DNA of 64,000 bases, taken from the NCBI GenBank assembly GCA_026929865.2, contig CM049395.1, positions 14,607,001 to 14,671,000 on the forward strand. Direction: 5' to 3'. Positions within the stretch are counted from its first letter, which is position 1. Each line of letters opens with the position of its first letter. Positions 14 to 32,546 of this stretch are shown piece by piece. The notes beneath the pieces were generated by a model. It saw nothing but the letters and a program-made list of their open reading frames with translations, searched no databases and was not told the DNA's origin. The translations under genes and the position numbers were made by a program. The DNA is from Hyperoplus lanceolatus. Its lineage: Eukaryota; Chordata; Actinopteri; Uranoscopiformes; Ammodytidae.

Positions 14-7515
<7,502 letters not shown>

Positions 7516-9328: not shown

Positions 9329-12300
9329 TCAAAGTCCATTGATCATTGGCTTCTGAAAAGGTTTGCGGCTGTAGAGCAGCATGTAGGCATTTGGAGATTG
9401 AACAAGGCTGTCTTGTACCTCCCTGACCACTGAGTCGTCAAAACAGTGCCAGGTCCGGATCAGGGCGTTGTGACACAGAGCTGTGTAGTGACCCATGTTC
9501 AGATGCCCCAAATGGTTCTAGAGAAGAAAAGGATTCATTTTATTGTAACAATTTCCAGAAAGATGGAAAAGAAAAATGGTTGGCCAGGGTCAAACCTCAT
9601 TACAAGGCAAAGAGTTTGACATTTCATGCACACATAATTATAATGTGGCATTTTTTTCTTAATATTGTAAATAATAAACATGCTGTAGGGGAGAACGGGG
9701 TAATATGTCACACGGGTTGGTTGTCACAATCGTTATATCTCCGAACCAGAAGGTGCTGTCTGTGAAATGTTGGTATGGTAATATCCAGAATTGGGGTCAG
9801 AGGTCACCTACATAGTCTTCCTTGGAGTTAGACTGCTGAATTTGAGGTGAGAGGACTGTTTGTGTTTTTCATGTCAAATTGAAAATATTTAGCTCCTCAT
9901 TATTTTTCTTCTAGGCTTTTACACAATGGGTTTTTAACAAAATACTTGTTACCCTCAAAAAGTGTGAAGGGTGAACTGTAGTTTAGATTGTGGTTAGCAA
10001 GCTAATCAGTTGTCAGATGGTTGTTGGCTTTGATGCTGGCAAGAAATTCAAGTTGGGGTTGGTTGTCACATGTTATCCAAAGGCTGCAGCCAGAAAAGGA
10101 ACCCAATAACGAAAGAAATTGTCAAACTGTATCCTCACTGACACCCCAGTGAAGGAGAGAATAGAGCAGGAAAAGGCAGCTAGCATACAAAAGAAAAAAG
10201 GGCAACAAAATCAAAACAACCCAGTGCATCCCAAACTAGACCAGCTGCCGAGGTAAGTTCGAGTAAGTTATGTAGGCCTATTTGTCCACTTGACAATGCA
10301 ATTAAACTTTCAAATTTAGTTCTGCTTTCTTGCCTTCTTTTTAAGATTATTCCCATAGATAACATTGTGACAAACAACCCCATAGTGTGTGACAACCGAC
10401 CCCTTGATGGGGTTGGTTGTCACAATGTGTAAGGGTGTCTTTGATGATTAATTTCTTCTTTATTACAATAAGATTAAGAGAAAAAGTGAGGGGTACACAT
10501 TTCAAGCCAACACCTTAAACTTCAATCTAATGTTTAGGTGATGAGCAATTCTCACTAGAGTAAAAAGTGTGCCTACGTACCCCGTTCTCCCCTACACAGT
10601 TGAACTTGTTTGTGAGTTAAAGGCCTACTTCACCGCCGGTTTGAATATGAAGGTGTATTGAATTCTGAGATCCTATGTAGTATAAATGTGCAAAAAAAAA
10701 AAAAAAAATCGGTTCATCCTAGCCTAAGAAAACGCAGAAAGAGTGTTTTTTTAACCCTATATTTCTCTTTCTTGTGACATCACAGAAAGAGAAATATAGA
10801 GTTAAAAAAACGTACTTTGTAAATATTACTGTGATGTCACAGTAAAAGACATCACAGTAATATTTACAAAGTAAGTATACTATACAATTTACTACATCAA
10901 CCTAGAAGCCAACAAATATATGTTATCTGATATAAAAAATATATATTCAACAATTTGTAGAGCAAATGGGTCTCCATGTGTGTTTTGTGAATCCATCTTC
11001 GTGTGTACCGGTTTGATATTTTTGGAAAATAAGGACATTTTGAGGGTCCTGACTTGGTTTCAAGGTACAGGTGAGAGCCAATTTAAGTTGAATATTAGGG
11101 TTGGGGTAAAGAATTAAGTCGTGATGGTAAGGGGCTATGGAATGCATTATGTCATTGAGGATCCTCACAAAGGGGTTTGTCTGTGTGCGTGCGAGCGTGT
11201 GTTTGTGTTCACTCACCACAACAGCATATAGGCGGTATGAAGAATATGAGGTGTTCTGCACTGAGCTGGGTAGAAACCGGGTGAGATCGAGCCTCATGGG
11301 GAACACAACATTAGTCCTCAGTTTCACCTGGTTCTTCCCTTTACAACCAAATCTGCAGAGGAGACAGGGATCATATTGACTCCAGAAGATATTGTTAGCT
11401 TACAGCCAATAATACAAACAACGTTAACTGGAGTAAATCAAGATAGCAGTTCATTTTGGGACACATTACGCGTGTTGATGTGTTAGTGCATTCACCTTCA
11501 GTTGGACATAGCTGTTTTAACTAGCCGTCCATGATTAAAATGTCAGGTACTTCTATTCGTTTCCACATGGGCAGTGGCACTATTATAATCTAAAGATTAC
11601 TGCTTTACTTCATATGGAATGCAGAAAACTTGCAGAATTCTAATTTTCACTATACCTTTCCAATGGGTAAATTTTTGTCAAAATGTCTTTTCGAGGTACA
11701 GACAAGAAGGTACAAATATGTACCAATGTTTAAGGTGCAGTGTTGTACCCTGCTAAGGTACCACTGGCAAAGCATTTGTACCCTTTTAGGACAATTCATG
11801 TACCTTGATTTCTTAGTGTGTATGGCAACTGGGAAAAGTTCAGGTACTTATTAAGTTCATGTGGTATGATTGAAAGCCCCATGCCAGCTACTAAGTGGGC
11901 CTTTAGGTTAGAGTTTTATATAAATGATTAAAATTTTAAGTTTTGAATCTTGTGTATTCTTTCAAATAGCCCAAACATGCCTAAACTTATTTTAAGATTT
12001 TACCATGAAAGATGATGTCACTATACCCACCGTTTCAGGTGCAACATGAGGATCTCTGGAGGTTTGTCCAAACACGTGAGGACTGTTGTTTCTCTTCTCA
12101 GCCCACACTCTGAACACAGCATCTGCTCTCCCCCGGTCAGAATAGTCTGTTCAAAGAACAACGACAGGCAATCCTGCACAACGTAGAGACGGAACAATTA
12201 GGACAAGACCAACAATGTCTGAAATTGGACATTTGAATGGTGCAAATTGGAGCTGCACGCTATTAAAAGTTACCTGAATGGAACACTTAATGACGACTGT

Positions 12301-15300
12301 TGGAATGGGTAGTGACAGTACAGTGAAGGTCTGTGTGCTGTGTGTCTGGAGTTCACAATGCATGCAGAGGGTCATGTAGCTCAGCTGGCCCTCAAACAGA
12401 CGCAAGACCACGGTGGACTCATCTGCAGTGGCACAGTCCCTGTTCTGGTCTGAGCTGGGCTGTCGTATTGAGGAGCGCATCTGGCGTTTTGCAACCTTGT
12501 AAAAGTACACACAAACAAAGATGTGCTTGTTCAGTAAGGTGTATGGACTTGCAGCTGCAGGATAGAGAAGGTGTCATGGATCACGCTGCACCTTCTTGAG
12601 GTCGTCGTGAAGAGCATTGAGGAGAAATAGCAGGAGTTCCTGGGCGTCCTGCTGGGAGGAGTTGTTGAACTGTGGGAGGATGCAGCCTAACACAGAGCGG
12701 GCCTCCACAGGGGCACAGCTGGAGCTCCTGCCCAGCCACATCTCCTGCAGCAGGCGGACAAACACCTCGGCCACCCGGCAATTAGACCTGCACCAAGAAA
12801 GATTAAAACGCTTGGAAAACACAACAGTCGTTGTTGGAGAGATAAGGGTTGGTGGTCTTACCTTACCTTGCCAGCTCTTTGCGAGTGTCTTGATTAAGGA
12901 GGTGCTCCACCAGGGGCACGGTGGAACACAGGCATTGTAACACAGAATTTAGGTAGCAGGAGTTGCCGGAGTTGTCCAAACCACACACTCCTGGTCTGTT
13001 CCACCTCTGCAGCCTACCTGCAGCGCTGCAGCCTCGCTCCTCACTTTCCACCTCCTGACCACAGCTGATAGTATTTGTCCTGCAACACCAGTGACAGACC
13101 TTAAGTCAAAACTAACCTCAATCTTTTATAACATAATGAACAGACACTTTCTCAAGCTAAAGACCCAAACATTTTATTCTACTTTTCGATTTTTTGCTGT
13201 ACAGTAAATGGTCTTGGAATGGAATTGATTGAATACAAAATAGCCAATAGCCTTCCACATTAAGCCTTCATACAAACATCTACATGCCTCCGCGCCGGCG
13301 TCAGCCAAAGGCTAAAGGTGATGTGTTTTCGGGGCTGTCCACCGGTCTAAGCCAATCATTTGAGCGTGATACCTCATGGACGCTTTGAGGGATTTTCTTA
13401 TAAGTTTGCACAAATGTCGACTCTGACTCAAGGATGACCTGATTATATCAAAGGTCAAGGGCACTGTGACCTTGACCTGATTATATCAAAGGTCAAGGGC
13501 ACTGTGACCTTGATCTGATTATATCAAAGGTCAAGGGCACTGTGACCTTGACCTGATTATATCAAAGGTCAAGGGCACTGTGACCTTGCATATTGTCCGA
13601 GCAATATCTAAAGCACGCTTTGAGGGATTTTCCTCTTTGAACAAATGTAAACTCTGATTCAAGTCTTGTGAGCACAATATTTTATAAATGCATTGGAGAT
13701 TTTTTTCCCTCAAATTAAGCACAAACCTTCTATTGGATTGAATGTGAACTGGTGATGTTGGAGGTCAAAGGTAATTGTGATGTTACATATTGTGGTTGCA
13801 GCGACCTTGTACCATATTGTAGCTTCTTAGGGGCTTAAACTTTTTGAAAGCATTGCCTATCACCACTGCACTTTCACTGCCAGGTGGTAGTTCTATCTAG
13901 ACATCAAATGCTTTCAAAAATAGAAATATTTATTACTGCCCCACTGCTATGGCTTACCTTTTTTACCTTGTTGTTTGGTAGTTTATTCTAACATCTAACA
14001 TTGTGAAGGCAATTTTATTTCAGCTTTAGTTGAAAACACATCAAACAAACTGTGATACTTACCTTTGCTTTGAAAGATTTGCTAAACCTGTTTGTTGGTA
14101 GGAAGTGCTGTTTAGCTGTGGCAGAACGGGCACAGTGACACTCCTGTCCACGGCCAGTTGAGAGGCCAGAGTCCTGGTGAACTGTGTCAGTGTGACCTGC
14201 CTGTCTGAGCCCGGGCTCTGCAGAGAGTAGAGCGTGAAGGTGTTGATGCAGACAATGTGTAGAGTCGCCCAGAGGCCCGGGAGGAACACATCTGCCACGG
14301 ATCCTTTCAGGTCGGACGGGGGAAAGAGCGCAGGTCCGGTCCAGCCATGCAGGTGGGCTACACCATGAGACAGGGACTCCTCAGATGTTCGTTGGTGCTT
14401 GATTGGAGGAGATGAGGACGGTGTTGCTGCGTCTGTGACTGGACTGGTAGCAGTTTGAACAAAATTAACATTGACTCCAAAGCCAGAGAAGGCATCTGCA
14501 GGTCTGCCATCTATCCAAGCAGAACTGTCCAGCTGAACCAGGTGTCTGCTGCTGCTGCAGAAAGGCCTCAGCAGGTGTCCGACCACCTGCTCCACGACAG
14601 GTTTCCTACTCCCTCTCTGGAGATGCTCTGGACAGTACAGACACATGTTACAGATGAACCCAGAGTCTGTGTCACAGAGGAGGGCGAGATGGAGAGCACA
14701 AGGACCCCCCTGCTCGTAGGTAAGTCGATACTTCTTCACAGCTAGGTTGTGACCGGGTGTGTACAAGGCCTGGAAGCGTCTGGTTAGGTGGCTACAGAAG
14801 GCAGAGAGTGCTTCCAACTTGTCTCCATCCTCCAGTCTGGTCAGAGATAGGAGGTTGTTCTGGAAGCTATTTCTCTTCAGGACCCCCTGCCATCCGTCCA
14901 GTGTTGGGGTCAGCTCTGGTCCAAAGCTGCCGTTCTCTCCAACAGACAGACCACTCTGTAGGACTATAGAGAACCATGTTAACGCCTCGGCATATTCCCC
15001 CTCGGAGAAATGTGCGCTCTGCTCTCTGCTCTGGCCGTATGAGTGACGACGGTTAGCTGCTCCAGCCTTCACACCAGCAGCTCTTTTGATCAGCTCCCGC
15101 ACGGCTCCTCTGTTCAACACTTCCAGGAGAAGTTCTCTGGCTGTATGGTAGACCTGGTAAGTGGGTCCGCTCCGAATAGTAGCGAGCGGCTTCACTTTTT
15201 TGGACCTGAAGATATTTGGTAAGCACAGGTCGTCCTTCTGCTGGGAGTCTCCAGGCAGTCCGTCCGCTAGGTGGCACTCCTCTGTCATCCAGGTGCACTC

Positions 15301-15327
15301 CCTCACTGACAAAATCTTGGCCTTCAT
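9329..15327 (-). CDS. piggyBac-transposase-like domain fused to a complete USP protease (USP50-like)
   Basis: Seven coding exons on the minus strand: 15327-14063, 13079-12867, 12787-12592, 12495-12274, 12173-12031, 11352-11217, 9517-9329; all junctions are in frame, giving about 787 residues. Residues 1-422 come from one exon and match piggyBac transposase order: helical N-terminus, YTPG (189-192), LLCDTDSG (216-223), QLDSSAW (265-271), [10 protein letters not shown] (359-368). Residues 455-787 form a full USP domain: Cys box [12 protein letters not shown] (Cys463), QQDAQELL, zinc pairs CMHC and CSEC, His box [12 protein letters not shown] (His735), FDD (752-753). Intron phases equal those of usp8, and it lies tail-to-tail with usp8, as USP50 does in mammals. 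The first exon's ORF ends exactly at a strong donor (AAAG|GTAAGT). A possible acceptor at about 15354 hints at further 5' exons, so the true N-terminus is uncertain. The USP part is sure; the transposase origin is likely; the fused transcript is inferred from splice sites. Confidence 0.8.
9686..10594. mobile_element. TA-flanked TIR element in the USP50-like intron
   Basis: Inverted ends GGGGAGAACGGGGTA (about 9688) and TACCCCGTTCTCCCC (to 10592), with TA on both sides as in Tc1/mariner-type targets. The interior repeats the word GTTGGTTGTCACA several times. No transposase ORF. Related by its ends to the element at 58351-59605. Confidence 0.7.
10744..10872. repeat. Two adjacent inverted repeats (tandem hairpins)
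   Basis: Hairpin 1: arms of about 32 nt at 10744-10776 and 10780-10811, near perfect. Hairpin 2: a perfect 24/24 match between 10814-10837 and 10849-10872 with an 11-nt loop. Both carry TGTGATGTCA-like words. They lie in the USP50-like intron. Confidence 0.85.
13270..13920. repeat. Dispersed repeat copy with internal 38-bp tandem array
   Basis: Begins ATGCCTCCGCGCCGGCGTCAGCC and includes TGTGAGCACAATATT, AGCACAAAC and TTGAAAGCATTGCCTA. The same phrases occur in order at 40260-40625, so this is an interspersed family. A 38-bp unit (CCTGATTATATCAAAGGTCA...) repeats four times at 13438-13588. Lies in the intron between the transposase-like exon and the Cys-box exon. Confidence 0.8.
13438..13588. 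repeat. 38-bp tandem repeat, four copies
   Basis: Units at 13438, 13476, 13514 and 13552 (last one 37 bp), differing by one or two bases. Each contains TCAAAGGTCAAGGGCA and the opposed TGACCTTGA, i.e. nuclear-receptor-type half-sites in both directions. Confidence 0.9.
14063..15327 (-). other. Single-exon piggyBac-like (DDE_Tnp_1_7-type) region of the fusion gene
   Basis: The exon covers nearly the whole length of a piggyBac transposase core in the right order. Residues 111-128 match the conserved helix before the catalytic core, 148-166 the SRDRFD...LRMDD region, 181-200 the ...YTPGAHLTIDEQ region, 212-224 the strand with LMMCDSGT, 259-271 the CRNITCDNW region, and 353-368 the conserved INIACINSFIIYS helix. 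The position of the first catalytic Asp (TIDEQ in the insect enzyme) reads VKK here (197-199), so the triad is broken. A candidate second Asp, D267, remains. I see no C-terminal cysteine-rich domain. No intron, stop or frameshift interrupts 1265 nt, which argues for long-term constraint on a domesticated domain rather than a decaying copy. Alignment is from memory of the Trichoplusia enzyme. Confidence 0.7.
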
Positions 15328-15353
15328 CTTCACCTCTCTGCTGCTCCGTCTAA

Positions 15354-18300
15354 GAAAGAGCCATCAATAAATAGTGATAGCTTTTCTCAAAACGGATATC
15401 TCTGATCTGACCTAGATGGAGATGGAAAGAGATGAGCTAACAAAAAATTAAAAATTAAATAAATACCGTGTGCCTGAAAGTCCAAAATGAGAAGAGCACC
15501 AGACTATGAACACAGTGCGCTCAAGAGCTTGTTTCATCCTGTAAGGTGTGTGTGTGTGTGTGTGTGTTGATCTGTTTTAAGTTGCAACACACACTCATGA
15601 GACTCTGCTGTTGATGTAAATCACCAGGCATCCACTGTAACTACACAACTGTTTCTCAGCAACCAACAAATGCAACACTTTGACCTCAGTGCAGCAGCTC
15701 TCGTGACATGTTATTGTCCCCAGGGTTCGGCCTGACATTAATCAAACCATTTAGGAGCCAAGGGGAAACCAGTATTATCATTTGCTTCATAGTCATTGTT
15801 AGTTAGTCATTGTTTGCAGTTTCATATGATCCACCAGATGGGTCTCAGTATATTATTTTGTCTTTCAATGCAGAAAATTAAGCTTATGTAAGGAACACCT
15901 GCCTAACCTAATGCATTGTTCTTTCTTTCTTTTTGCTTGTACATGGCACTGAATTACAGTTTCTTTGGTTTGCTGGCGTGTGACGCTGTTGGACTGGCAT
16001 GCTACTCCTTAGCTTATTCCTAAAAAGCACAACCTGTTATAAAAACATGAAATCAAACTGAAGCCCCATCAGAAACATTGAGATACATGAGTGGAACATG
16101 ATGTATTCTCAGAGATCAGATGAAAGACAGACTTAAAACAGATTAATAGTTTATATGTGTTGATTTTAAACAACTTAAATCTGCTTAGTAGGCTCTCACA
16201 GACTTAAAAACAAAGTTAACTTTCTATTGTAAGCAATGCTATCAGCTGATTTGATTAACAGTGCATTCTGCATTCTGTACCTATCGCCATGGTGTCCCAC
16301 AGCCCCTCATTGATTATCAGTGGATCTATTTGCTGGTGTGACATCGCAAAAAACATCTATATGTGTGTCCTGTTACTGGGTCTTAGAGATAGAAGTGTAT
16401 GTTTATTAAAACTTGATTTAAAAAAAAATTGTCAATGCTGAATGTCAAAAATGATTCCCTTCTATAGAACAATGTATTTATTCTATTAAATGGCAAAGGC
16501 TTATATTCTTTGAATACAACATGAGAGAGGCCACGTGTAATATTACCTGCCACTGCCAGACACATCATCTCATATTGGCCAGGCTGAATATACTCCACAA
16601 AGGGGAGCTGTTTAGTCACTGTCAAATCGGCCACATTGACAAACCTGTCTGAACTTACTGCAGTAAAGGAAAGTAGAAGCAACAGCACTTTAAACCTTCA
16701 GATTTACACTTGATTATATCGCCACCCACAGGAATAAGAAGTTATAGTCCACAGTTGCAAATGGTGGCACGTCATTAAAAATTATTGTAACGTTGCATTA
16801 ATAACAAACTATTGAGTCTGCAGTCATGCATTTGATTTAACAAATCATACATTGCTCATTATTTCAATCCTTACATAATGAAAAGCCACACAGCCATGTG
16901 GACATATAGTCAGGGCCCCACCTTTTCTCCTCTCCAAACAAAGGATGACACACCTAAATGACACACGCATTGCATTGCCATACGTGTAACATTGTATCTC
17001 TATTACTTTGTTTGACTATAGATATAGATACGTAGATGTTAACCTTTACGTTTAAATCTCCTGGTATGCATTAGCACCAATGGTCTTGTTTCAAAGATCT
17101 CATTCCATTGGGGCAGCGCTCTGTTCAACAAATAAAGCCTGGTTGGCATTTCAGCCAAATGATTCAGCCAGCATTGTATGTTATGACAAAACCTCCACAG
17201 ATTTGATCGCACATTCACCTCATGGGAACAGAACTATCTGTTGGGAAGCTTTTATTTTGGCTGGAGCACAAGCTGTTTGGCTGTGAAATGCAGATTCATT
17301 TGGCAGTGAAGAAACAGACACAAAAGGCCTTTCTCAGCTTTGTTTTTTTTGCCTATAATCTTGATCACAATTACAATACAATTAAGTCATCACAAGTGTA
17401 CTGTTCACCTGGGACTATACCCGTAACCTCCAACAGATAGTATTGGAAAGCAAAACAGATGGTTGGTGTCTCGTCTCCTACATAATTCTGTTGGATGAAA
17501 AATCTCTTGAAAAAGGTGTCATCCATTGTCAACAAAAAGTATCATGTTTGCCTGTAGAACAAAATAACAGTTTAAGCGTGGGTGCAGAGTTATGTGACTA
17601 TAACACTGTATATTTCTGTCCAATAGGACACAACAAGTAGATGAACAAACAATAACAGTCCCTCAGTAGCAGTCTTAAGTGTTTTGCTTTTTTCTTGTGC
17701 AGCAACACCAGGGCGTCGTGACAATACCCTGCCTTCTGTCACTGGGGGAGGAAGGATCACACAATTACCTTGTGGGCTCTGGAAGCTCTCCTGCATAAAT
17801 CAAATCCACTTTTGAGCTCAAAATATGTTAATTTGTGAATATCAAAGGGCAATCTTCTCTCCTCCAGTAAGCCCTTTGAGGCTATCTGCACGTTCTACTG
17901 TATTAGAAAACCTGCTCATTTTAATCCCAGAAAATATCATCCAGAATTCACTGATACAGGATGAGCTTTGCTGTGACATGGCCGGTTCATGTCAATCACA
18001 CGATAAATAAGAAAATACACAGGTGAAGATTGTATTTCATATAGGAGTCTCGAGTATGACATGTAAGTTATATTTTGCAGCACACCGCCCAAACACTATT
18101 TGCTTCTCTGTTGGTGAAACAGAATGAAAAGTCAGAAAACACCCCCCCCCCCCCCCCCCCTGTAAGTTTCCTCGGTTCTCTGGACAGTAGGCCTACATGG
18201 ACAATAGAACATATGATAAATGATTGATGATGAAACTGTCAGAGACTTCTCAATGGAAACTGTTTGGTCACTGTTGTCAGACAGCTGTTTGTAAGCTATA

Positions 18301-18790
18301 CCTTATTATTCTCTGTGTGGAAAAAATCACACACACAAAAGGCCGACGCACACGATCATTTCACCTACATAAAAAGGGCTTACTATCAGTTCAATTTCAA
18401 AATCTCCAAATATCTCACAAAATATGGTGAGAAAAGCTTTTTATTTAAAACTCTGGCTTGGTTTGTCACTGCCGAATTATATTTATTATTATGTACTTTG
18501 CACAACTGTGGAAAAGAAGAGTAGAAACAAGTAAAGATGTCAGTGGAGGTGAAGTGTCATGGCTGCTTTATTTCCCTAAAAACCAGTGAAAGGTCACATG
18601 AGTGAGTGTGACTAATAACACACACGTCAGCCACTTCTTATAATGACATCTTGTCTTGATCCGTCTTTCCTCGGCAGCATACTGACAGGGTGAAGTCTTT
18701 CTACAGCTGCTCATTATATGTATCAGGAATACAGGTAGTTATTTAGGAATAGAACATTGAGTCACTGAATTGTGCAGAACACAAGAGACC

Positions 18791-18858
<68 letters not shown>

Positions 18859-20160
18859 CTGAATAAAAAGGCAAAATGCAACAGTGTGAATACAAGACAT
18901 GTGTGAAACTACATTTCTAACTATAGCTCTGCCATCTCCCAGGAGTAGTGTGGGAAAATACATTATGCTACTTTTCCGAGAAGATAATCAGAAATAGTTT
19001 GATATCTATTCTAGATAAACAGTAGGCTACATCAGGTATGTTTCTGTATTTAATGTCTGAAACTGAAATGTCTGAGTTGTCTTTAATGAAAATGGACAGT
19101 AGAAACCTCTATACCCTGGAAAAGGTCAACTTTGTTTTGGAAAATTCGAGGGAAAAGATATTGCAGTGGGAATTTTTGCAGGCTTGTGAACAGTTGCTTG
19201 GAAAACTGGCCACGATGTGGAAAAAATTATGTCGACTGATAAGCCTTTCGCATTATTTTCCTTTTCTTTTCATGTCAGATCTGCTCCAAAACACACGAAA
19301 AAAAAAGATGGAACTTACGTTAAGACGAACATACGTCTTAACATTCTAGATTTGTAAGCTTCTGTAAAGTATAGCTAAATATAGCTAAAATATTCTGGGA
19401 AAATCATTTCCTCAAGCGGTGAAATTCTGGACGAGATCAACTGACATGGTCTAAATCTGAGGTGCTTCTGTCATCTTACACATCAGATGATTCCTGCCGG
19501 GTCAAAGCTTGTGTTTACTTTGAGCACGAGCGGCAAGAACTCCTTTGTATGAGAGTCCAAAGTAGAAAATACAACTTTATTGCTCTCCTTTTTGAGGTTG
19601 CTTTGCACATTGTGTGAATTAAACCTGCATGGGAGGGAAGGAAAGCAAAGTCGGTGTAGTAGGCCTATTGCCGAGATGATAACTTATACTCAGAATGTAA
19701 TATTTTAATTTGTACAGGATAAATAAAAATAAGGTATTTATGAGTGTCCGTTGGCTTGTGCACAAAATAATGTTTCATTAATTGAACAGCCGATGTTGCT
19801 ACACTGCAAGCAGGGGGAACATTGTGTATTGAGGACAAGGTGAATATTAATAAGCTTTTATGATACACGGTCTTTGAATGAGTGCACGACTTACTTAAAG
19901 CCGCCATTATTTGTACTGCAGCCACACTGGGGACTAATACATTGTTCTCAAACTGATCACTCTTTTTCAATGTTAGACCATGCAACTTTTAAATATTTCC
20001 GCTTAAAGCCTGTTCTGTAGTTCCACTGGACTCTCAAGTAACAAGACTAAAATAATATTCTTCCAGTACTCACATTTCCACGCTACACTGAAAGACTTCT
20101 TGCTGTAACTACCCCTTCTATTCATACTGGCAGTGAAAAGATCCCTCTACTGCTGGGAGT

Positions 20161-20206
<46 letters not shown>

Positions 20207-20442
20207 CGAGCGAGAGAGAGACCATCACATTTTTAAAGTTGATATAGTGAACCCGTTTGCAACCATCTGCTATTTTACACATATCCAGCAGTTACGGAGC
20301 AACATTACCAATCATTTGGATGTAAGTCCAGTTTTTACACAATCAGTTGCTGGTCTTTACCAGCCTTCTGAGGGAAATTGCTGGTTATTTTCGCTCCTAA
20401 ATGCTCCACTATTTTCATCTGCTAGTCACTCACTTTGTGTGG

Positions 20443-20496
<54 letters not shown>

Positions 20497-22889
20497 GTGT
20501 GTGTGTGTGCATGCGTGTGTATGTGTGCTTTAGGGTTTTCCAAAGATGGAGATGCACTCTTAATGGAATGCATGCGGAGAAAGTTTCACTTTCAAGGTGA
20601 GCATAAGGTCACAGTGTATTTTCCAAGATTGTCAAATGAAAACAGCATCCCCCTTGAATACTAGGTTTGTAAAGTTGATGTCATAAACTGCAGGGAGCTT
20701 GAATGTCATACAAAATGATACACTGATAGGATGTCAATGGTCAGGAGACTGTGTTACTTTGGCAGTGGTTAAAGCTTTCAGAGGCCAGGTCTCTGAGGGC
20801 TGCTGTCTATTTTTAAAGGCACTTTGTGTTCTAACTTTAGTATCCAGCATCGTGCAGCACGTCTCTGGTCTGAATATGGACACACATTCTGACACTGAGG
20901 ATCCCATAATGAACAACCTCAAGTTTGTGGGAGATAGATAACCACTGGAGACACTTGCACCTTTGTCTCCACACTCACTCCTTCATTCTGAACAGGCCTA
21001 TAAGTAGATCCTCTGGTCTTTTCAGAATGTTCAATATTGAGTTTGTAATTGTCCTTCCGGGAAAGAGAATAGCATTAATGACCTTGAATTAGCAGGCAAT
21101 GTGCTGTGAGCCATACTGTCAGTCGATGCACGGTTTGTGAGTTGAGTTGCTTAGTCCTGGTGTTCCTGGATTGTATTTTTAACCCTGACAGGCCCGGGAC
21201 CCTGGGCGAGACCTGAGAAGGTGAGGGAAGAGCAGAAGCTGGGAGTAGGAAGTGAGGTTAGTAGGTGCAAGACTGAGGAGAGCTAAACGCCTTGGTATCT
21301 CCTATATCAATCAAAACCAATTGCAAGAGTGAACGCAAAGAGGAAGCTGCAGAAAGCCTTATGTGACTAGCTAGGCAGGGTAGAGAGACATGCGTCAGCA
21401 GACGTGAAGTGATTTCAACTGAAAGTAATGAATGACATTATGACTTTGACCTACATTTGGTCTTTAGGCACTCCCCCCTCGCTTGGCACAAATCCGGTGC
21501 CTATTAGCTTTGATCGAGTTCAGTATTCCAGCAGGGTTTAATCACCATAGGTGAGGCTAGTATATTGTTACCAAGCGAGCTGATAAACAACACATCGGTG
21601 GCCTGATTCCCCCCCAGGCAGGAAGTAGCAGCGGTGAAAATAAAACCCAAGCCCAGCTGTAGCTGATTATGGAGAGACAAACCATGCTCCAACCTTTGCA
21701 CCAACACTTCTCCCTTCCTGTATTTTTGGTACAGAGGATTCAACTTGACACCACAAGATTGTGCCAACTTCAAATGAAAGGGTTTATCCACTGCAGGAAA
21801 CCCAGACGTTAGAAGCATATAGAAGAATGTACTGAAGCTTTGACTTCCCATTCTATGCTACTTTATACTTATATTAAGATTTTACATACAAAACACAAGA
21901 TCAGCCCATTAATACATGATAGATTATAATAGTCTGAACTTAAATTGGCCCCAAATCTACCAGCAACATTAGTGCTGCTTACATGTTAATGCATCAATCC
22001 TAACCAATAAATAAAATACAGATGGGGGGTATCTACATAAATGCTTTTACTGTAATACTGAAGTATGTTTTGCTGGTTTTACTAGTTAACATTTTGAATG
22101 CAGGACTATTTTACTGTAACATTTTTATAGCTTGGAATTATAGCCAAAGAAAGACTATTTTCCTCCTTTGTGGCTCACAGTCAAACATATATTCATTAAG
22201 AAATATAGAATGCACCACTTCTGACTGCTATATCACATTGTATTGATAGTTAAGGGTTACACAGTAAAGAGGCTATTTTCTAAGTAAGACAAAAATATTT
22301 CCTTTCGAGGTAACTCCCAATTATCCTGTGTGACTGATGCCTATGACTGACACCATGATCATTGCCACACAATCTGTCGTCATCATCTTGTTCTGTCTCT
22401 CATGTAAAAGTTTCATAGACATGAGGACATGTGTTCAGTAAAGGTGCCTATGAAGGGATGTGAAATGACTCTAGTGCAGTCCTACAGGTTTTACTGACAG
22501 TGAAATGACTGAGTCACTGTTGCAGAACAGGCAAAAATGTTGCCTAACCTCATTGGTTTCTCTGCAGTGTCCTTTACCAAAAGGCAGGTGGGAAACTGTG
22601 TACCCAAAGTGAACAGCTCTGATATATGGTGGTCTGAGCCAGAGAGCCACATTTAGCTGATGATTCAAAGCTTGTGTCCCCAGAGCTCGCAGTGTAATTT
22701 AGTCTGCCCACTTAAACATTAAAAGTGGAGTCTAGAGGTGGCAGCACTGTAGTCAGCACTTCTTCACCAACAAGGCTCTCTTGGCTGTGTGCAGTAGTCA
22801 CAAGAAAAAAAATCATTCAAATTAGTGTGAGAGGTAACGGAATCCTATCTGACCAAAATACTAAACTAAACAAATAAAGACAGACACAG
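15354..22889. other. Intergenic region between the USP50-like gene and mapk6
   Basis: No ORF here looks like a real gene. The longer open frames at 16383-16688 (-) and 19038-19349 (+) lack family motifs and splice support. It holds microsatellites: (GT)n 15546-15567, a C-run 18142-18160, (CA)n 18791-18855, (TG)n/(AG)n 20166-20219 and (TG)n 20443-20530. The 5' UTR of the USP50-like gene probably starts here. Confidence 0.6.
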
Positions 22890-24241
22890 GCCAAACTCTT
22901 TGCCAGTAATTTTATTTTGAGATATTTTGTAGAACAGGGGATGATAACAAAAAAATAAAATTGTCCACAAGTGTTCTACATGCTACACCTTAACCTAATT
23001 CATCATGCTTGCCTGGAAAAAGTACATAGAAATTTAACAAAAAACGTACAATTAAAACTGACGTACATTATACTCACCATTGACTTTACTTTGTAATGTA
23101 CTTTCCTCTTGCCTCCATGCACGCAATTTTTTTTATACATTACATTTAGATAAAAAATTAAGACTTGTAGGCGCTTCTTTAAAACATAAAGTAGTTTCTT
23201 TTTTCACTAAAGACAGAACGCACCTATAAATAAAAAAACAAAATCATCAGAAAAGAATGATATTCGTTTGGACAATATTGTTGGAAAATGGAAAGCCTCA
23301 ACTCCTTTCTTATAAAACAACAGATTAATTTTTGCATCCTACCATTAAACAAAAGGAACAGTTACACGCCCATATAGTGCCGAAATGAAAATGGAAGTCT
23401 GTCCAACTCCTCGGTCTTCAATAATCACATTGAAATAACACATTTTGATAAAATAAATATCGCACATCTGCTAGAAATAAATAATGATGATTACTGAAAC
23501 ACCTCACTATGTTAACTGCTTAAGTGAGACAGATTTCATCTACGCGACCACTTCATTTCATGGTACGAGGATGGTCATGTGTGTAAAGCACTAGTGCGGC
23601 TTCGAGTGTCTCTCGCGGCTGTTACCTTGAGGTAGATAACACATTTACATTAACGCCTACGATAATGGTTGCTGCTGGCATCATGTGTCAGATTTACAGT
23701 ATGAAAGGGCTATTAAGGAAGCTTTCATAGGGGGAAAAAAAAAGTCATAAACGGAAATTGTTTATATATGTAAAAAAAAAAAAAAAAAAAAAAAAAAAGA
23801 CATCCCATCCCCTTTTTTCTGTTGGATCCCATCCCAGGAAAAAGTGTTTGAAAGCACTTTACAGCAATGTTAGCGTCTACTATCCTTCCTTATGCCAAGC
23901 CCAAATCTCCTCCTCCTGCCTTCCCATCCATCTCTTCAAGCCAATTCCCCCTCTGCTTTGTCCGTCTACAGTACTTTAAGTGTGCGAGTGACATGCCAGT
24001 TTAGCAATAAGGGCGTAGACATTAACCCATGAAGGCCCGGTGATCAAGGCTCAAGAGTGATGACCAATACTCTATAAATATAATAAATCACCCTTCTCAA
24101 CTCTTAAAAAAAAAGATAAAAACACAAGAAACCATAATAAAAAAGTATGAAATGATTCAAGTACAATAATATACCATATTGGAAAAAAAAAAACACTAAA
24201 CTGCCAAGATTTTGCACTGTCGGGGGAGGATAAAGATTTAT
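22890..24241 (-). other. Probable mapk6 3' UTR
   Basis: AT-rich, ORF-free DNA directly after the mapk6 stop. On the minus strand an AATAAA occurs at about 22913, so the transcript could end near 22890. It contains an A-run (T on the message strand) of about 27 at 23772-23798. A second AATAAA overlaps the stop region near 24235 but is too close to be the main signal. The 3' end is inferred, not proven. The sequence TTAACCCATGAAGGCCC at about 24023 resembles one end of a TTAA-type transposon, but no partner end was seen. Confidence 0.4.

Positions 24242-32546
<8,305 letters not shown>

Follow-up and report, generated by a model that had tools for sequence, protein, structure and literature searches.

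A piggyBac-derived first exon predicted for the deubiquitinase gene usp50 in the fish Hyperoplus lanceolatus

In the fish Hyperoplus lanceolatus, the first coding exon of the deubiquitinase gene usp50 appears to be a captured piggyBac transposase, a reading to which we assign a probability of roughly three in four. The gene lies on the minus strand of the window (the whole 64,000-nucleotide stretch of DNA analyzed), where seven exons, running from 15327 down to 9329, translate in frame into 787 residues with no internal stop (Table 1). Best read, the product would carry a domesticated, catalytically dead piggyBac domain at the amino terminus, followed by a deubiquitinase that is probably active. 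Direct observations are the domains, the open frame, the splice signals, the loss of the first catalytic aspartate, and the lack of a close second copy in the genome. The gene is likely a true fusion, of a known kind, with a new arrangement and a new partner.

Table 1. Features of the predicted usp50 gene and of its neighbor usp8, in window coordinates (a slash marks the splice point)
Feature	Position	Strand	Basis
Candidate 3' splice site CTCTTTCTTAG/A, 22 nt 5' of the exon 1 ATG	15350..15373	-	sequence only
Exon 1: piggyBac-derived (DDE_Tnp_1_7) open frame, 421 codons + 2 bases, 1265 nt, ATG at 15327	14063..15327	-	frame and profile match, hhalign residues 5-398
Splice donor AAG/GTAAGT, 9/9, phase 2; the frame's own stop TAA (14061-14059) inside	14057..14065	-	consensus score
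Intron 1: 983 nt, 39% GC; AATAAA at 14019, 13987, 13934, 13178	13080..14062	-	sequence
Exon 2: USP Cys box, phase-2 acceptor, no in-frame ATG	12867..13079	-	translation
Exon 3: USP, QQDAQE	12592..12787	-	translation
Exon 4: USP, first CxxC	12274..12495	-	translation
Exon 5: USP, second CxxC, LHLKR	12031..12173	-	translation
Exon 6: USP	11217..11352	-	translation
Exon 7: USP, His box GHYTA, FDD, stop codon at 9329	9329..9517	-	translation
usp8 catalytic-domain exons; Cys-box exon from 3097, phase-2 acceptor; stop 7513-7515	3097..7515	+	sequence

The original prediction had joined a 1265-nt transposase-like exon, with a donor after two bases of a codon, to USP exons whose five later junctions also fit; all of these coordinates and junctions recur in our model. 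The later junctions (12867/12787, 12592/12495, 12274/12173, 12031/11352, and 11217/9517) all have GT-AG borders and preserve the frame. Exons 3, 5, and 6 end in weaker donors, matching 6, 7, and 7 of nine consensus positions, respectively. (An alternative donor for intron 2, GTAAG, 5 nt downstream, was rejected because its reading is full of stops.) The exon 1 frame is open from 15363 to the TAA that directly follows its last codon. An open frame of 421 codons with the same composition has a chance probability of about 4e-8, which argues against a chance frame. Exon 1 is coding in composition: its GC content is 0.545 (GC3 0.594), that of the USP part is 0.527 (GC3 0.632), and that of intron 1 and the surroundings is about 0.39. 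Given the candidate 3' splice site before the ATG, an untranslated 5' exon may lie farther upstream. Two introns hold repeats: intron 1 a minisatellite at 13435-13588 (period 38, 4.1 copies, 98% matches), and intron 6 a possible nonautonomous transposon at 9684-10596, whose 30-nt ends are inverted (83% complementary) and which carries internal GGTTGGTTGTCACA repeats.

The critical junction is that between exons 1 and 2. The acceptor at 13079 completes the third base of the codon split at the exon 1 donor. No other minus-strand site from 13095 to 23000 reaches 9/9, and the phase of the exon 1 donor fits exon 2. Because the Cys-box exon has no in-frame ATG of its own, it requires a start upstream. 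Other first exons were sought on 13095-23000 as donors of at least 8/9 with ATG frames, a scan that a weak, distant, or multi-exon start could escape. It found six such donors, three with an in-phase ATG frame: 421 codons (exon 1), 46 codons, and 8 codons. The usp8 Cys-box exon likewise opens with a phase-2 acceptor, 106 nt before the motif (97 nt in usp50); thus the acceptor probably dates back as far as the USP8-USP50 pair, with exon 1 as the later arrival. The sequence model upholds the in-frame junctions first proposed for the transposase and USP exons.

The strongest rival reading makes exon 1 a separate domesticated piggyBac gene of 422 codons, its TAA falling in a donor-like site with AATAAA signals nearby, while usp50 starts elsewhere. 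In a mixed form, a single promoter would yield a short protein through intronic polyadenylation and the fusion through splicing. The placement of the TAA suits both forms, as do three AATAAA motifs (14019, 13987, and 13934) within 130 nt past it; three or more occur in only 31 of 12,774 overlapping 130-nt windows (both strands, the exon 1 cluster included). These motifs make a stand-alone product, or a two-product gene, possible. However, few stops fall exactly within a 9/9 donor (of the 2525 TAA triplets in the window, over both strands and any frame, two do, exon 1's own among them), the phase of this donor suits exon 2, and no other strong candidate was found on 13095-23000 for the upstream start that exon 2 requires. 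We consider a separate gene, mixed form included, unlikely.

The USP half of the predicted protein matches UCH over the entire profile (hmmscan; positions 1-254 of 254, E 7.4e-59), in line with the full USP domain claimed at the outset. Its best solved relative is USP8 (217.8 bits), followed by USP15 (186.9 bits). The catalytic Cys, His, and FDD aspartates are kept as in USP8, and the fish deubiquitinase is probably active. A genome search returned 19 matches, of which six belong to the gene itself; none of the remaining 13 exceeds 50% identity. The expected usp8 neighborhood was also found, with usp50 and usp8 arranged tail-to-tail. This linkage, together with a complete UCH domain closest to USP8, is the basis for the probable name usp50. 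Elsewhere in the window, a kinase gene, probably mapk6, occupies 24242-32546 on the minus strand; it has HRDLKPAN near 31988, and its C-terminal exon is long. A Pfam scan of five window frames, including the kinase C-terminal exon, gave no match, whereas the control piggyBac copy, L001, matched.

How firmly is exon 1 tied to piggyBac? In a hmmscan search of Pfam, exon 1 matches DDE_Tnp_1_7 with E 4.3e-8 and 33.3 bits (cut-off, 22.4 bits), a significant profile match that places it in the piggyBac superfamily. The whole spliced protein retains the match (E 1.3e-7), alongside UCH. Such a profile search had been named as one of two tests that could refute the proposed fusion; it returned the match instead, and so does not refute it. 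A profile built from 16 piggyBac proteins of the same genome gives one colinear alignment in hhalign (residues 5-398, probability 81.5%, P 1.1e-5), and scores exon 1 at 16.4 bits; the best of 2000 shuffles reached 1.9 bits. The match to this profile is strongest in two blocks, the core and the C-terminal helix, and the N-terminal part aligns in order, but weakly. Among solved structures, the sole transposase match is piggyBat, weak taken alone (E 0.036). Relatives were sought also in viral contigs, where two pattern matches proved not to be relatives, and in phages, where none was found.

In the genome (806.7 Mb in 527 contigs), piggyBac matches number at least 119, and many of them have long open frames. 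Of 804 candidates, 116 were scored to give these matches, and exon 1 of the window is absent among those listed. From these, 28 loci were compared (L001-L008 and L010-L029), 16 of them as representatives and 15 in column counts (L025, incomplete, was left out). The 28 copies represent many lineages, with mutual identity mostly 25-35%. The closest to exon 1 shares 28% identity over 102 residues, a low value for a domain of this type. In a tree of 15 copies, exon 1 groups with the piggyBat-like L001, with support of 0.75 and the longest branch (2.37); this support is too weak to assign exon 1 to a parent family. Exon 1 as a search query, a method that detects close copies only (even relatives at 28% go unlisted, and there was one candidate at first look), returned itself alone from the 807-Mb genome. 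The lack of a close second copy argues against a recent transposon copy.

Among the other piggyBac copies, a 616-residue open frame occurs at three places (C4:6573357, which is L016; C17:10034951; and C4:20450928), with scores of 243 bits for two and 237 bits for one, which suggests a recently active family. Among the matches listed, 21 fragments cover profile positions 1-212, each with one inner TAA and mostly with near-equal scores; perhaps these form an amplified defective family.

The transposase domain itself has decayed. The first catalytic Asp-Glu is replaced by Lys-Lys (residues 198-199) in all three alignments of exon 1. The second catalytic Asp corresponds to Asp 267 in two alignments and to a gap in the other. 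Opposite the third (within GGVD in transposons), one alignment has Ala 324, and the other two leave a gap. Exon 1 is shortened from the second position to the third, a region that the three alignments place differently. Exon 1 therefore lacks the catalytic DDD triad, and is derived from piggyBac rather than an active member of the superfamily. Its last cysteine is residue 360, so the cysteine-rich C-terminal domain that occurs in most aligned piggyBac copies is absent. With this domain missing and at least the first catalytic aspartate replaced, the DNA- or chromatin-binding module that had been envisaged for the N-terminal half is a weaker proposition.

Of 45 columns near-invariant among 15 piggyBac copies, exon 1 keeps 17 (or 7, in a second alignment), whereas individual copies retain 75-98%. 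Some of this divergence may be old. Median identity is 25% among the piggyBac families of the genome and 20% between them and exon 1 (over 104-113 columns only); the families are almost as divergent from one another, so part of the exon 1 divergence may predate capture. Nevertheless, its frame is intact. In simulated neutral decay, 0.2 substitutions per site introduced a mean of 7.0 stops per 421 codons in exon 1 and 7.9 in L001, and the frame was still open in 1 of 400 runs and in none of 400, respectively. Most simply, selection would have maintained the frame of exon 1 while transposase function was lost.

These results bear on a second rival, in which exon 1 is an unexpressed piggyBac fossil, open by chance, that happens to adjoin usp50. 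The many long-framed piggyBac matches in the genome lend this idea some plausibility, but a fossil sits poorly with a frame that stayed free of stops although at least one catalytic aspartate and most near-invariant residues are gone, and with the failure to find a close second copy; we regard it as very improbable. Least probable of all is that exon 1 is some other host N-terminal domain with a chance piggyBac score: pairwise identity is weak and HMMER local scoring passes only part of the domain, but the Pfam score exceeds the curated cut-off by about 11 bits, the core and C-terminal blocks are colinear, and 2000 shuffles score far lower.

The capture may have proceeded as follows. On its 5' side, and in matching orientation, usp50 would have had a piggyBac element or a gene that had earlier arisen from one. 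Splicing from a phase-2 donor close to the end of the DDE domain to the old phase-2 acceptor before the Cys box would then have excluded the cysteine-rich C-terminal domain and joined the USP domain in frame. Subsequently, the transposase part would have lost catalysis (Asp to Lys at 198; third Asp not found) with its frame preserved. We infer a fusion mRNA, whose frame is selectively retained, and an N-terminal domain that may now serve in assembly, or in targeting to chromatin, for a protease that retains its Cys, His, and Asp residues.

A fuller version of this scheme is held more tentatively, at slightly less than even odds. It envisions an active fish usp50 whose N-terminal 420 or so residues, a dead transposase domain, would serve permanently for targeting or assembly. 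The same exon might also yield a second product, a stand-alone transposase-derived protein, through polyadenylation in intron 1. Such a gene would be the mirror image of CSB-PGBD3, and the first transposase-deubiquitinase fusion.

In primate CSB-PGBD3, as described, the host part is N-terminal, and the transposase is a C-terminal, alternative 3' terminal exon with a single catalytic change, D to N (PMC3902484). Both there and, by prediction, in the fish gene, a host gene and a piggyBac domain are spliced into one protein. In the fish model, however, the transposase is N-terminal, as the first coding exon; at least its first catalytic Asp is replaced, its third was not located, and it is joined to a protease. 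PGBD1, PGBD2, and PGBD3 are reported to have their transposase part in a single 3' terminal exon (PMC3902484). PGBD1 and PGBD2 resemble the fish gene as domesticated vertebrate piggyBac genes with additional coding exons, but in the fish gene model a splice donor closes the transposase exon, and six USP exons come after it. PGBD5, with 7 exons, is reported to lack three of four conserved catalytic aspartates and to match an IS4 transposase profile at 1.7e-80 (PMC3902484). Like exon 1, it has lost catalytic aspartates, and it is an old domesticated piggyBac gene, as exon 1 may be, but its profile match is far better than that of exon 1 (a comparison of scores, not of sequences).

Mammalian USP50 is not known to have a piggyBac domain. 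Like the fish gene, it is USP8-linked and has a USP8-like USP domain. Human USP50 is classed in one account as a non-protease homologue without conserved acidic residues, and its pairing with USP8 is given there as head-to-head (PMC11405836). In contrast, the fish gene keeps the Cys, His, and FDD aspartates, so that the fish protein may differ from human USP50 in being active. In the window, the fish gene lies tail-to-tail with usp8.

Enzyme and transposase domains are also combined in SETMAR, described as a mariner transposase with a histone methyltransferase (PMC12062965); this resembles the fish gene as a single protein, but the transposase is mariner, not piggyBac, and the enzyme is a methyltransferase, not a deubiquitinase. 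The main text of a survey of transposon-host domain pairs refers to piggyBac but nowhere to UCH (PMC12062965), and "transposase" is absent from the main text of an account of deubiquitinase domain architectures in 14 animal taxa (PMC4774998). No description of a piggyBac-deubiquitinase fusion was found in the open-access literature, so the original remark that none was known stands to that extent; database annotations may already list the gene unnamed.

Host-transposase fusion is a known vertebrate route to new genes, and the fused piggyBac cases reported put the transposase in a 3' terminal exon (PMC3902484). An N-terminal piggyBac exon driving a deubiquitinase, if true, would be capture in the opposite order. 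Moreover, human USP50, reported as chromatin-associated and classed as inactive (PMC11405836), would have a counterpart in fish that combines a transposase domain with intact catalytic residues, and in that protein the two activities, chromatin targeting and deubiquitination, could be tested side by side.
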